From Anaerolineae bacterium (GTDB taxonomy: Bacteria; Chloroflexota; Anaerolineae; JAADDB01), in NCBI GenBank assembly GCA_015490995.1, contig WFWT01000108.1:1-39648 (forward strand): a stretch of 39,648 nucleotides of DNA, given 5' to 3'. Shown here in pieces: positions 26,724-38,639 of this stretch. Position numbers and translations under genes: made by a program. Under the pieces are notes generated by a model. It ran no database searches. It saw only the letters and a list, made by a program, of their open reading frames with translations, and was not told where the DNA came from. Within the stretch, counting starts at the first letter, position 1. Every line of letters starts with the position of its first letter.

Positions 26724-26864
26724 CTCTCATCTCCCAGGCGGGCGCACCCCACCTGCCGGAATTGGCACCTGGGTCCGGGGAGCCTGCAGGTGGCCTTTCC
26801 ACCTGCACCGGACCTGGTTGCCAGGGGTTCACAGGGCCGGTCCCTCCCCCCTTCTTGATGAGAG
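26724..26864 (-). promoter_or_regulatory. SAM-I (S-box) riboswitch aptamer
   Basis: Read on the minus strand this 141-nt leader has the SAM-I core in order: CTCTCATCAAG (P1 5' side and J1/2), GGGGGGAGGGACCGGCCC, GTGAACCCCTGGCAACC, GGTGCCAATTCC and GAGATGAGAG closing P1. P1 pairs CTCTCAT (26864-26858) with ATGAGAG (26730-26724). The P3 arm is long: GGTCCGG/CCGGACC plus TGCAGGTGG/CCACCTGCA. It is expected to lower expression of mtnA, pfkB, MAT, ahcY and metK when SAM is abundant. A third P1-like strand (CTCTCAT) lies at 26719-26713, just before the terminator. Confidence 0.97.
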
Positions 26865-34259: not shown

Positions 34260-35795
34260 TCATTGTTCCTGCTCTTCCACTACGGACACTTTTGAAGCCG
34301 GATGGCTCAGGCCGCGCAGCTGTGTGCGCAGGTGCGGGAAGAGAATCACCTCCCGAATGGAAGGCTTATCGGTCACGATCATGGTCAAACGGTCGATGCC
34401 CATGCCGAAGCCGCCGGTGGGGGGCATGCCGAACCGGAGGGCGAGGATAAAGTCCTCATCCACCGGGTGGGCTTCCTCGTCGCCGGCCTCCAGCGCGCGG
34501 CCCTGTTCCAGAAAGCGTTCCAGCTGGTCTAACGGGTCATTGAGTTCGCTAAACGCGTTGCAGATTTCCATGCCCCCGATAAACCCTTCAAAACGCTCCA
34601 CAATTTCCGGGTTGTCCGGAGAACGCTTGGCCAGCGGTGAGATGTCCACCGGATAATCGATGATGAAAGTAGGTTGAATCAGGGTTTCCTCCACGTAGGA
34701 GGAGAGCAAGCTATCTACCAGCTTGCCCCATCCGGCCTGAGGGTTAGGGTTACCACCGATGTCCTGGATGGCACGACGCAGCGCGTCCGGATCCCGGTAC
34801 TGGAAAATGTCGATGCCGGTACGTTCTTTAATGATGTCGGCCAAGGGCACGCGTGGCCAGGGAGGTGTCAGGTCGATATCATGGCCTTGGTACGTCAGGC
34901 AGAGGCTTCCGTTTACTTGTTCTACCGCGTAGGTTATCAGCTCCTCGGCCCGGCGCATGACCCCGTGATAATCGGTATACGCTTCGTAGAATTCCAGCTG
35001 GGTGAACTCGGGATTGTGTTTGAAGGAAACCCCCTCGTTGCGGAAGTCTCGGCCAATTTCGTAGACCCGCTCATAACCGCCCACGATAAGGCGCTTCAGA
35101 TAGAGTTCGAAGGAGATGCGCAGGTACAATTCCTGGTCCAGCTCGTTGTGATACGTGACAAAGGGACGTGCTGCAGCACCGCCATAAATAGGTTGCAGGA
35201 TTGGGGTCTCCACCTCGATGAACCCCTCACTATCGAGGTAATCCCGTATGGCGCGTACCAGGCGGGCCCGTTTGATGAAGATCTCCCGCACATCGGGGTT
35301 GACCATCAGGTCCACATAACGGTGACGGTAGCGGGTTTCCACGTCGGTCAGGCCATGCCACTTGTCGGGGAGGGGGTGCAGGGTTTTGGCCAGGAGGGTT
35401 AACTCGCGCACTTCGCAGGTGATCTCCCCGGTGCGTGTGCGAAAAATGGGGCCTTTCACCCCGATAATGTCGCCGATGTCCAGCATTTTCTTGAAGAACC
35501 AGTTGTACGTTTCTTCGCCCAAACGGTCGAGTCGCAGGTGGATCTGAATACGGCCGCTGCCGTCCTCGATGTGGGCAAAGGACGCCTTGCCCATGACACG
35601 GCGGGTCATGATGCGCCCCACCAGGGCGACCATGTCATCTGGCCCCAGCTCTCCCCGTTCAAACGCGGCCTTCGCCTGTTTGGTTGTGTGGGTGCGTTCA
35701 CACCGGGCCGGGTAGGGGTCAATGCCCCGTTCATACAACGTAACCAGTTTTTGCCGCCGAACCCGCTCCTGTTCGGTGATGGTGTGCAGGTCCAT
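34260..35795 (-). CDS. lysS: Lysyl-tRNA synthetase, class II
   Basis: The 511-aa enzyme charges tRNA-Lys. An N-terminal OB-fold anticodon-binding domain (about residues 55-150) precedes the class II core. Motif 1 is GFIEVETPIL, motif 2 FRNEGVSFKHNPEFTQLEFYEAY and motif 3 GFGMGIDRLTM. Full length. The ATG at 35795 follows AAGGGA and is 14 nt after the greA stop, so the two form an operon. No lysine riboswitch or T-box is seen in the leader. Confidence 0.97.
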   Translation of the reverse strand: MDLHTITEQERVRRQKLVTLYERGIDPYPARCERTHTTKQAKAAFERGELGPDDMVALVGRIMTRRVMGKASFAHIEDGSGRIQIHLRLDRLGEETYNWFFKKMLDIGDIIGVKGPIFRTRTGEITCEVRELTLLAKTLHPLPDKWHGLTDVETRYRHRYVDLMVNPDVREIFIKRARLVRAIRDYLDSEGFIEVETPILQPIYGGAAARPFVTYHNELDQELYLRISFELYLKRLIVGGYERVYEIGRDFRNEGVSFKHNPEFTQLEFYEAYTDYHGVMRRAEELITYAVEQVNGSLCLTYQGHDIDLTPPWPRVPLADIIKERTGIDIFQYRDPDALRRAIQDIGGNPNPQAGWGKLVDSLLSSYVEETLIQPTFIIDYPVDISPLAKRSPDNPEIVERFEGFIGGMEICNAFSELNDPLDQLERFLEQGRALEAGDEEAHPVDEDFILALRFGMPPTGGFGMGIDRLTMIVTDKPSIREVILFPHLRTQLRGLSHPASKVSVVEEQEQ

Positions 35796-35809: not shown

Positions 35810-36313
35810 TTAGGTGATCTCTATGATGCGCAACTTCAACACCCCACCGGGTGTCTTCACCTCCACCACGTCGCCAACCTTACGCCCCATGAGAGCGCTG
35901 CCTACGGGCGATTCGTTGGAGATGTGATTGTTGAAGGGATCGGCTTCCACCGACCCCACAATGGTGAACGTCTCCTCTTCCCCGGTGTCCTCGTAGCGCA
36001 CCCGAACGCGGGAGCCCAAGCCTACTTCGTCCTTTGGCCCTTCCTCGTCGATGATGACCGCGTGTTTTAACTTCCACTCAAGTTCCATGATCTCGCCTTC
36101 CAGGAAGGCTTGGGCGTTTTTAGCTTCATCGTACCCCGCGTTTTCCGAAATATCCCCCATGGACTTGGCTTCGTGGATTTGTTGGGCGATCTCCGGTCGC
36201 TTGACCTTGATCAGGTACTCGAGGCGCTGTTTCAAGCGTTCGTACCCGGCACGGGTGAGATACACCACGGGCTCTTTCGATTCCGTGGGGTGAGTTTTGG
36301 TGTTCTGCGTCAT
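35810..36313 (-). CDS. greA: Transcription elongation factor GreA
   Basis: The 167-aa factor rescues backtracked RNA polymerase by stimulating transcript cleavage. The N-terminal coiled coil spans about residues 18-88 and its tip GDISENAGYDEAK holds D54 and E57, which match the catalytic acidic pair of E. coli GreA. The C-terminal FKBP-like domain ends in GGVLKLRIIEIT. The ATG at 36313 follows GAGGGAG. The leader carries a promoter followed at once by an intrinsic terminator, suggesting control by early termination. Confidence 0.97.
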   Translation of the reverse strand: MTQNTKTHPTESKEPVVYLTRAGYERLKQRLEYLIKVKRPEIAQQIHEAKSMGDISENAGYDEAKNAQAFLEGEIMELEWKLKHAVIIDEEGPKDEVGLGSRVRVRYEDTGEEETFTIVGSVEADPFNNHISNESPVGSALMGRKVGDVVEVKTPGGVLKLRIIEIT

Positions 36314-36382
36314 CGGTACTCCCTCTCTCTTAATTCTGCTGGGTTAGTGTTCCGGTCCCACCATGGATAGTCCACCACAACT

Positions 36383-36465
36383 TGCCTGAAAATCCGTATC
36401 TCAAAGGCCACACAGCCAAAGGGCCGGAAGTTGACGGACCGAGGAAAGCCGTGAATTTCCGAACG
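36383..36465. repeat. Dispersed repeat with inverted ends, copy C
   Basis: The right end, CCGTGAATTTCCGAACG at 36449-36465, closely matches the right end of the copy at 23053-23226. The left end at 36383-36398 (TGCCTGAAAATCCGTA) matches the other left end at 10 of 16 positions, and all six differences are transitions. At 83 bp it would be an internally deleted or decayed copy, placed in the greA leader. Confidence 0.4.
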
Positions 36466-36472
36466 CTCTCAT

Positions 36473-36513
36473 GCAAAATAAACTGAGGGTCCCGGTGGGT
36501 TACCCTCAGTTCG
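36473..36513 (-). terminator. Promoter-proximal intrinsic terminator in the greA leader
   Basis: On the minus strand ACTGAGGGT (36510-36502) pairs with ACCCTCAGT (36490-36482) around an 11-nt loop, and TTATTTTG follows. Outer A-T pairs extend the stem. It begins about 7-10 nt after the predicted start of transcription. Terminated RNA would be about 43 nt; read-through gives a leader of about 205 nt to greA. Confidence 0.8.
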
Positions 36514-36523
36514 GACGGGGAGT

Positions 36524-36552
36524 ATTGTACGGCAGGGACGGCGGGTCGTCAA
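36524..36552 (-). promoter_or_regulatory. Promoter of greA-lysS
   Basis: On the minus strand -35 TTGACG (36552-36547) and -10 TACAAT (36529-36524) are separated by exactly 17 bp; each matches consensus at 5 of 6 positions. Predicted transcription start is near 36517. Confidence 0.85.
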
Positions 36553-36725: not shown

Positions 36726-38639
36726 ATGGGTAAAGGAACAACGTTGCGGGCATCCTTGCGTTTGTCCCGGATGTCATCCCGACGCTATTACATTGTGGTG
36801 GCTTTGACCGTCACCCTGTTCATTACCCTGGTCGCCGCCGTTGGATCCCATCGGATGGCCGTCCAGCAGTTGATCCGGGTTAACGAGCAGGACAGCGTGA
36901 CCTTTGCCCAGCATGTGTGGGTAGAGATTTGGCCTCAGCACATGTCGGTTAGTGAGCTCCGAGATCCGGAGTTCCTGGCCGCGCTGGAACGCAATTTGCG
37001 CCTGCACATGCAGACGGCTGAAGTGATACTGGCACGGGTGTACGACACTCAGGGGCAGGTGGTGCTCTCCATTCCGGAGAGCGTGGCCGAAAAACCTGAA
37101 CCGCCCGAGATCGTGGTACGGGTGCTCCAAGGTGAGGTCATTGCCAAGTTTGTGGAAGCGGAAAAGCTGGTGGCCGAGGGCCACATTGAGCCGGGTGTGC
37201 TCCCCCCCTACGTGGTTGAGACGTGGCTACCCATCCGGATCGCGCCGGACGCGCCCCCGGTAGGGGTGTTAGCCCTGTACCGTGATGTCACAGATATTTA
37301 CCTGTGGTCTCAACAGTCCGCCGACCGGTTGTTGCTCTTTCTCCTCTCGGTCATCGGCCTCGTTTTCCTCAGCCTATCCGTTGTCGCGTACCGGGTACAG
37401 GCCATGCTGGACCGTCGTACCGATATCCTGGAGTCCCTGCTGCGATTGATCGCCATTGCTCATCGGGTGGAAAACTTAGATACCCTTACCCGAGACATAC
37501 TGGAGATCGTCGTCTCGGTGCTGGACGTCCCGATGGGCGCGCTGTGGATTCGTGGTCATGTCGCGTTGCACGGATTCCCCCCGCAGGCGCGAGAGGTGGC
37601 CCGTCACCTGATTCAACAACGGACAGATATCGATATTCGTAACACGGTCGTGGTAAATAATGTATCCCGGGCCTCCTTACCATCTCCCCAGGACGTGGTT
37701 ATTCGCACGTATGCGGACCGCTTTGATCTGAAGGCGGTCATTGTGGTGCCTGTCTGCACCCATGATGGCACGCGAGTGGGAGGATTGGTTGTGGCCGACC
37801 GTCGTCCTCGTCGTTGGCTCCCGGAACAAATTTACTTCCTGGAAGTTACGGGCCAAGAGCTCGGAGTGCTGGCCGAGCGCCTGCACCTGATCGGCCGGTT
37901 GCAAGAGGCGCTGGAGGTACGGGAGGCCATGATCCGCAACGTCTCCCACGAGTTGCGCACCCCCCTCGCCCTGATATACGGCTATCTGGAGCTCCTACAG
38001 GACGGAATGCTAGGCTCCCTTAACGAGGAGCAGCGTGAGGCCGTGGACATCATGCTCCGGAACGCGGAGCGGTTGCACTTTATGGTGGAGCGTCTGGTGC
38101 AGATGCGCCTTCTGGAAGCGGCCACTCTGGAGAAGACCACCTTTGACCTGGCAGGGTGGCTGCGGAACATCGTCGATGAGTGGAAGGTGCGGGCGGAGAA
38201 CGCCGGGATTGCGTTGCAGGTGGCGCTCCCTGCCGATACCCTGCCTGTACACGCGGACCCGAAGTTGCTCTACATGGTTGTTCAAAATTTGCTGGACAAC
38301 GCGATCAAGTTCAGCCCTCAGGGGGGGACGATAACGGTGCGGGCATGGTCGGAAAATGACAACGTCCACATCACCGTTTCGGACGAAGGCATCGGCATTC
38401 CTCCCGACAAGCTGGAACGCATCTTCGAAAAGTTCTACCAGGTGGACCTTAGCACGACCCGTCGGTTTGGGGGTATGGGGATCGGTCTGGCGTTGTGCAA
38501 GGAGATCGTGGAATTGCACGGAGGCCGGATATGGGCGGAAAGTGAAGGTGAAGGGCGTGGCGCGACGTTTCATGTGGTGCTGCCCCGCCGTCACGTGTCC
38601 GTGGCCACCTCGGCGGTGGAATCTCTCGGATCATCGTGA
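36726..38639 (+). CDS. Membrane sensor histidine kinase with GAF domain
   Basis: The 637-aa protein has a first helix at about 21-40, an outer sensor region of about 160 residues, and a second helix at about 201-223. A GAF domain (about 240-390) and the kinase core follow. The H-box is NVSHELRTP with phospho-acceptor H408, the N-box NLLDNAIKFS begins at N521, and DEGIGI, EKFYQVD and GMGIGLAL complete the ATP-binding domain. No response regulator gene is adjacent, so it is an orphan kinase in this window. The ATG at 36726 follows GAGGAG. The GAF domain has no visible haem or chromophore cysteine that I can assign. Confidence 0.93.
   Translation: MGKGTTLRASLRLSRMSSRRYYIVVALTVTLFITLVAAVGSHRMAVQQLIRVNEQDSVTFAQHVWVEIWPQHMSVSELRDPEFLAALERNLRLHMQTAEVILARVYDTQGQVVLSIPESVAEKPEPPEIVVRVLQGEVIAKFVEAEKLVAEGHIEPGVLPPYVVETWLPIRIAPDAPPVGVLALYRDVTDIYLWSQQSADRLLLFLLSVIGLVFLSLSVVAYRVQAMLDRRTDILESLLRLIAIAHRVENLDTLTRDILEIVVSVLDVPMGALWIRGHVALHGFPPQAREVARHLIQQRTDIDIRNTVVVNNVSRASLPSPQDVVIRTYADRFDLKAVIVVPVCTHDGTRVGGLVVADRRPRRWLPEQIYFLEVTGQELGVLAERLHLIGRLQEALEVREAMIRNVSHELRTPLALIYGYLELLQDGMLGSLNEEQREAVDIMLRNAERLHFMVERLVQMRLLEAATLEKTTFDLAGWLRNIVDEWKVRAENAGIALQVALPADTLPVHADPKLLYMVVQNLLDNAIKFSPQGGTITVRAWSENDNVHITVSDEGIGIPPDKLERIFEKFYQVDLSTTRRFGGMGIGLALCKEIVELHGGRIWAESEGEGRGATFHVVLPRRHVSVATSAVESLGSS

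Follow-up and report, generated by a model that had tools for sequence, protein, structure and literature searches.

A conserved promoter-proximal terminator hairpin in the greA leader of Chloroflexota, a probable GraL-like attenuator

The window, a stretch of 39,648 nt from an Anaerolineae bacterium (contig WFWT01000108.1), carries greA and lysS on its minus strand behind a leader that holds a promoter and a hairpin. The features considered here are listed below.

34260-35795, minus strand: lysS, lysine--tRNA ligase, 14 nt past greA and presumed to share its operon
35810-36313, minus strand: greA, transcript cleavage factor
36314-36473, minus strand: remaining greA leader; GGGAG at 36323-36319 is the ribosome-binding site
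36474-36480, minus strand: T-rich tract TATTTTG, extending the TT of the 3' arm
36475-36517, minus strand: predicted terminated leader RNA of about 43 nt, placed from the -10 position and the T-tract
36481-36490, minus strand: 3' arm of the hairpin, ACCCTCAGTT, with the conserved core CYCTCAG
36491-36501, minus strand: loop region AACCCACCGGG, in which CCC/GGG extends the stem inward by 3 bp; the loop length varies in relatives
36502-36511, minus strand: 5' arm of the hairpin, AACTGAGGGT, with the conserved core CTGAGRG
36524-36529, minus strand: -10 element TACAAT, whose counterpart in relatives is mostly an exact TATAAT
36547-36552, minus strand: -35 element TTGACG, 5/6 to consensus, with a 17-nt spacer
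36726-38639, plus strand: histidine kinase gene, the upstream neighbour, divergent to greA

The initial annotation had placed a minus-strand promoter here, followed by a hairpin and a T-tract, and this arrangement was confirmed. A promoter scan of the minus strand (36552-36524) scored TTGACG-17-TACAAT as 10/12; the hairpin starts 12 nt past the -10 element, its arms AACTGAGGGT and ACCCTCAGTT form 10 perfect pairs, and TATTTTG follows. The predicted start at ~36517 and the predicted end at ~36475 give an RNA of 43 nt, in agreement with the length of about 43 nt expected earlier. The 33-nt hairpin has a dG of -19.3 kcal/mol (z = -4.56), and none of 200 dinucleotide shuffles was equally stable. 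It remains intact in the predicted fold of the 205-nt greA leader, where the end of its 3' arm lies 167 nt from the greA start codon; a mechanical terminator scan misses it because only loops of up to 8 nt were allowed. The pattern CTGAGRGN{3,16}CYCTCAG occurs once in the 3.04-Mb genome of the window, at the greA leader. Because the core is unique in the genome and the hairpin is kept before greA across the phylum, we consider that the hairpin exceeds chance.

The intergenic space contains divergent promoters and is without the 3' end of another greA-strand gene. Since the upstream histidine kinase gene is divergent, the terminator belongs to the greA-lysS leader, and the idea that it is a property of the upstream gene is ruled out; among relatives, the longest nearby upstream ORF was on the opposite strand at 44 of 67 motif loci. 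Control specific to lysS was rejected as well, since the greA-lysS operon is frequent whether the motif is present or not (lysS after greA in 67/76 motif loci and in 48/68 others). The greA leader of the window matched no Rfam family, which rules out a T-box or other known riboswitch. As for the gene product, two residues at the coiled-coil tip of GreA (D and E of GDISEN) align with E. coli GreA and, since these tip residues are conserved, a cleavage-competent GreA in this genome is plausible. Two further observations were made in the window. A SAM riboswitch lies at 26724-26864 on the minus strand (RF00162, 84.6 bits, E 9.4e-19). Just past the terminator, 26 nt (36448-36473) are 92% identical to G000:C61:17425-17450 (L102:1501-1526; E 6.3e-4), a copy flanked by a 93-aa ORF on one side and, on the other, by an ORF resembling DNA polymerase I by eye; this repeat is possibly due to chance.

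Comparison of greA leaders across Chloroflexota, which had been proposed as a check, was positive: CTGAGRG...CYCTCAG followed by a T-tract lies before greA in many members of the phylum, among them Chloroflexus, Oscillochloris, Dehalococcoidia and Anaerolineae. A search of same-class greA leaders for hairpins that run into a T-tract showed the same CTGAGRG-loop-CYCTCAG core in several families. Among 66 unselected class leaders, a terminator-like element was present on the greA strand in 33, compared with 4 on the antisense strand and 1.2 in shuffled copies, and the best terminator contained the CTGAG core in 14 of these 33. Not every leader has the motif: a clear terminator is lacking in about half of the unselected leaders, and two genomes of the same family have no such motif in their greA leaders (L003, and L002, whose sequence begins at the end of a contig). 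Genomes with two full GreA copies (e.g. G025, G038, G049, G339, G129, G293, G087, G337) carry it at one copy only. In two greA leaders of family f14 (L011, L016), the CTGAG hairpin is closely followed in tandem by another terminator-like hairpin, which has a T-tract of its own. At the contig end of L002 (positions 1-83), about 83 nt form an almost perfect inverted repeat, which is probably an artefact of assembly and adjoins a promoter-like TTGGAC...TACAAT.

The anatomy of the element was analysed in 78 hairpins from relatives, or 72 after removal of duplicates. Because these rows were chosen for CTGAG...CTCAG and a T-rich tail, selection accounts for part of the constancy of CTGAG here; it does not account for the location of the hairpins before greA, for the promoter ahead of them, or for the finding of the core in leaders that were not selected. 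Among 72 leaders with sufficient upstream sequence, an exact TATAAT was found within 60 nt upstream of the hairpin in 57/72 versus 1.55 in shuffled sequence and 0/37 in a downstream control, and a 5-of-6 match in 68/72 versus 15.25 and 1/37, respectively. The -35 element is often TTTACA or TTGACA-like. The segment before the hairpin core has a median of 19 nt (66 leaders with a -10), and the predicted short RNA measures 35-85 nt (median 49). The loop varies in length, the total core spans 17-27 nt, and the outer stem pairs covary: position -3 is paired in 50/72 leaders versus at most 46 in shuffles, position -2 in 66/72 versus at most 64, and position +5 in 66/72 versus at most 65. T occupies 78-92% of positions 4, 5, 9 and 10 past the core, a T-rich tail having been a selection criterion. 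Pairwise identity is 0.26 in the 5' flanks versus 0.80-0.88 in the stem, the latter partly by selection; no conservation was seen in the 5' segment or the downstream part of the relatives' greA leaders. No conserved antiterminator, alternative pairing or third copy of the arm sequences was found in the 72 leaders.

To what extent the element belongs to greA is shown by two kinds of genome search. The first used a covariance model (R2) of 42 positions, built from 16 greA leaders (A1), which carries no information on the greA gene itself. Run against 396 class genomes, the model listed 22 distinct places with E <= 7.9e-5. Every one was directly upstream of greA, nine of them in genomes outside the training set (G339, G188, G068, G114, G069, G086, G129, G293, G095), and seven more non-training genomes had a match before greA at higher E (G062, G105, G087, G337, G175, G132, G078). 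The first listed place away from greA (G213:C382) had E = 8.1e-5, and the window's own match reached an E of only 6.0e-4. These searches applied strict filters by which weak cases are missed, and matches with E above 1e-4, mostly elsewhere in the genomes, were treated as chance. In a sample of 400 genomes of the phylum, 36 of 39 listed places precede greA; the three exceptions (G489, G551:C77, G628:C74) are in genomes that have greA elsewhere. At one of them (L154, in G489), a GACTGTGAG...CTCACAGTC hairpin and then a run of eight T come after a TATAAT, with no greA in the 3-kb locus; this is perhaps the promoter-proximal terminator of another transcript.

The second search scanned 84,980 species genomes for the strict exact pattern CTGAGAGN{3,9}CTCTCAGTTNTTNNT and located GreA by tblastn. 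It returned 74 stretches, 37 of them beside greA, and in 36 of these 37 the motif is 43-229 nt upstream of the GreA match; in the stretch L226 the palindrome, likewise adjacent to greA, was hit on the other strand. All 36 exact matches titled Chloroflexota adjoin greA, and the titles of the greA-adjacent stretches include Chloroflexus, Oscillochloris, Kouleothrix, Roseiflexaceae, Dehalococcoidia, Anaerolineae and Chloroflexi. The sole greA-adjacent match titled as another phylum (L183, JAAUTF010000445.1, Gracilibacteria) has a GreA 82% identical to that of Chloroflexus, and is probably mislabelled or from a mixed bin. In the other 37 stretches no greA was seen; one of these (L250) has too little downstream sequence, and another (L218) has a title that gives no phylum. 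Judged from these searches, the Chloroflexota element is near-exclusive to greA.

We propose, with a probability of about 0.6, that the element is a GraL-like, promoter-proximal transcription attenuator of the greA-lysS operon, most likely read by the transcription machinery and perhaps subject to feedback by GreA. On the evidence of sequence, greA is probably throttled by early termination in Chloroflexota. RNA polymerase would start at ~36517, and the 10-bp hairpin would be complete once ~37 nt had been made. At the T-tract, ~43 nt from the start, some polymerases would stop and release the short RNA, while the remainder would read through into greA and lysS. That the stem core is conserved beyond the needs of an intrinsic terminator suggests that some factor reads it, most likely the transcription machinery and above all GreA. 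By analogy with E. coli GraL, it is plausible that GreA exerts negative feedback on its own operon through the leader. One conceivable mechanism is that polymerases which have backtracked at the T-tract are put back at the terminator by GreA-stimulated cleavage. Since no conserved antiterminator partner was found, control is more likely to act on the efficiency of termination than by switching of RNA folds. A more specific version is put forward only tentatively: the Chloroflexota terminator would be ancient and exclusive to one gene, the polymerase-GreA complex would read its stem sequence, and GreA would thereby set its own supply through a cis signal evolved independently of E. coli GraL.

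A simpler account is that the terminator cuts greA-lysS expression by a fixed factor and senses nothing. Such a constitutive brake would agree with the very short 5' segment and with the want of a conserved antiterminator partner, and other greA leaders of the class have terminators of unrelated sequence, so that termination alone may be what is selected. A fixed brake, however, requires no conservation of the stem sequence, whereas the same core is found from Dehalococcoidia to Chloroflexus between 5' flanks that are unrelated, even if selection contributes to the stem identities. We regard this account as unlikely, though a serious one.

The short RNA could instead act chiefly in trans, attenuation of greA being secondary; GraL of E. 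coli has been reported to be active in trans too (PMC6829880, PMC2965389). In the Chloroflexota leaders, however, the bases that are conserved are taken up by stem pairing, and the loop and 5' segment that would pair with targets are not conserved, which makes a mainly trans-acting role very improbable. The palindrome, a near-perfect inverted repeat just past the start point, might also be taken for the DNA operator of a repressor. The fixed half-site spacing of an operator is not seen, as the whole core ranges over 17-27 bp, a range to which a dimeric DNA-binding protein is poorly suited; the T-tract is on the greA side of the palindrome, the outer pairs covary, and the site is found at almost no other gene in the searched genomes. 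We give an operator hardly any credence. Least credible is that the hairpin, which begins a few nucleotides into the predicted RNA, mainly guards the read-through mRNA against decay or shapes translation with an incidental T-tract, since T-rich tracts occur throughout (78-92%, with the T-rich tail selected), are unneeded for protection and give a pattern that fits an intrinsic terminator.

The element bears on whether elongation factors regulate themselves via a terminator. Early termination before greA in distant phyla with unrelated sequences suggests that throttling GreA in this way has been repeatedly favoured. As the terminator is compact, conserved in sequence and tied to one gene, the role of the conserved stem is directly testable, and the element may merit an entry as a new RNA family.

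Several known systems resemble the Chloroflexota leader. NusG-dependent pausing in B. subtilis uses the motif TTNTTT (PMC12288461). The T-rich tract past the hairpin is similar: TTNTTT occurs in 51/72 tails versus a shuffled mean of 40.5 and maximum of 49, a weak enrichment by which a NusG-type T-rich pause signal at the greA leader is weakly indicated. The NusG of the window reads RHTPGVTGF at what we take to be the place of N81-T82 in B. subtilis NusG, and recognition of the T-tract by NusG is uncertain because of this difference.

The closest parallel is GraL of E. coli, where ~2/3 of greA transcripts stop at GraL and about one third pass, the short RNAs having imprecise 3' ends with partial read-through (PMC6829880). 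GreA raises this termination, and the effect needs the catalytic activity of GreA and the GraL sequence in cis (PMC6829880). The likeness to GraL noted in the initial annotation is supported by sequence features. An intrinsic terminator is present between the greA promoter and greA, and both leaders have a promoter, a short 5' segment, a terminator hairpin, a U-tract and a divergent upstream gene, with a short RNA of ~40-60 nt and greA expression by read-through, both of which are predictions in our case. E. coli differs in having two greA promoters, whereas one is visible in the window, and its hairpin GACCTGGG...CCCGGGTC is unrelated in sequence to that of Chloroflexota. The covariance model of the E. 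coli-type greA leader, RF01769, scored 127.5 bits in E. coli and had no match up to E = 1 in nine Chloroflexota loci (L101, L016, L025, L137, L142, L024, L023, L006, L157). It had been left open earlier whether the likeness is convergent or conserved. Both terms hold in part, the comparison pointing to convergence in relation to E. coli and showing conservation within Chloroflexota, and the best reading would be that the element is GraL-like by convergence and not a member of RF01769.

More broadly, Naville and Gautheret (2010, PMC2965389) place the greA/rnk family seventh among families under attenuation, and greA and rnk attenuators are known in Proteobacteria, bacilli and Clostridia; Chloroflexi are not mentioned in the text of that paper (PMC2965389), and our literature searches found nothing on Chloroflexota greA leaders. 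As in the attenuators defined there, the terminator of the window is nearer to the downstream than to the upstream gene and within 300 nt of the start codon, and it shares with the greA/rnk attenuators a premature terminator before a greA-family gene. The attenuators of that study have antiterminator structures, whereas none that is conserved was seen in the Chloroflexota leaders. The kind of attenuator is thus already known, and what is new is a greA-family attenuator in a new phylum with a conserved sequence of its own.
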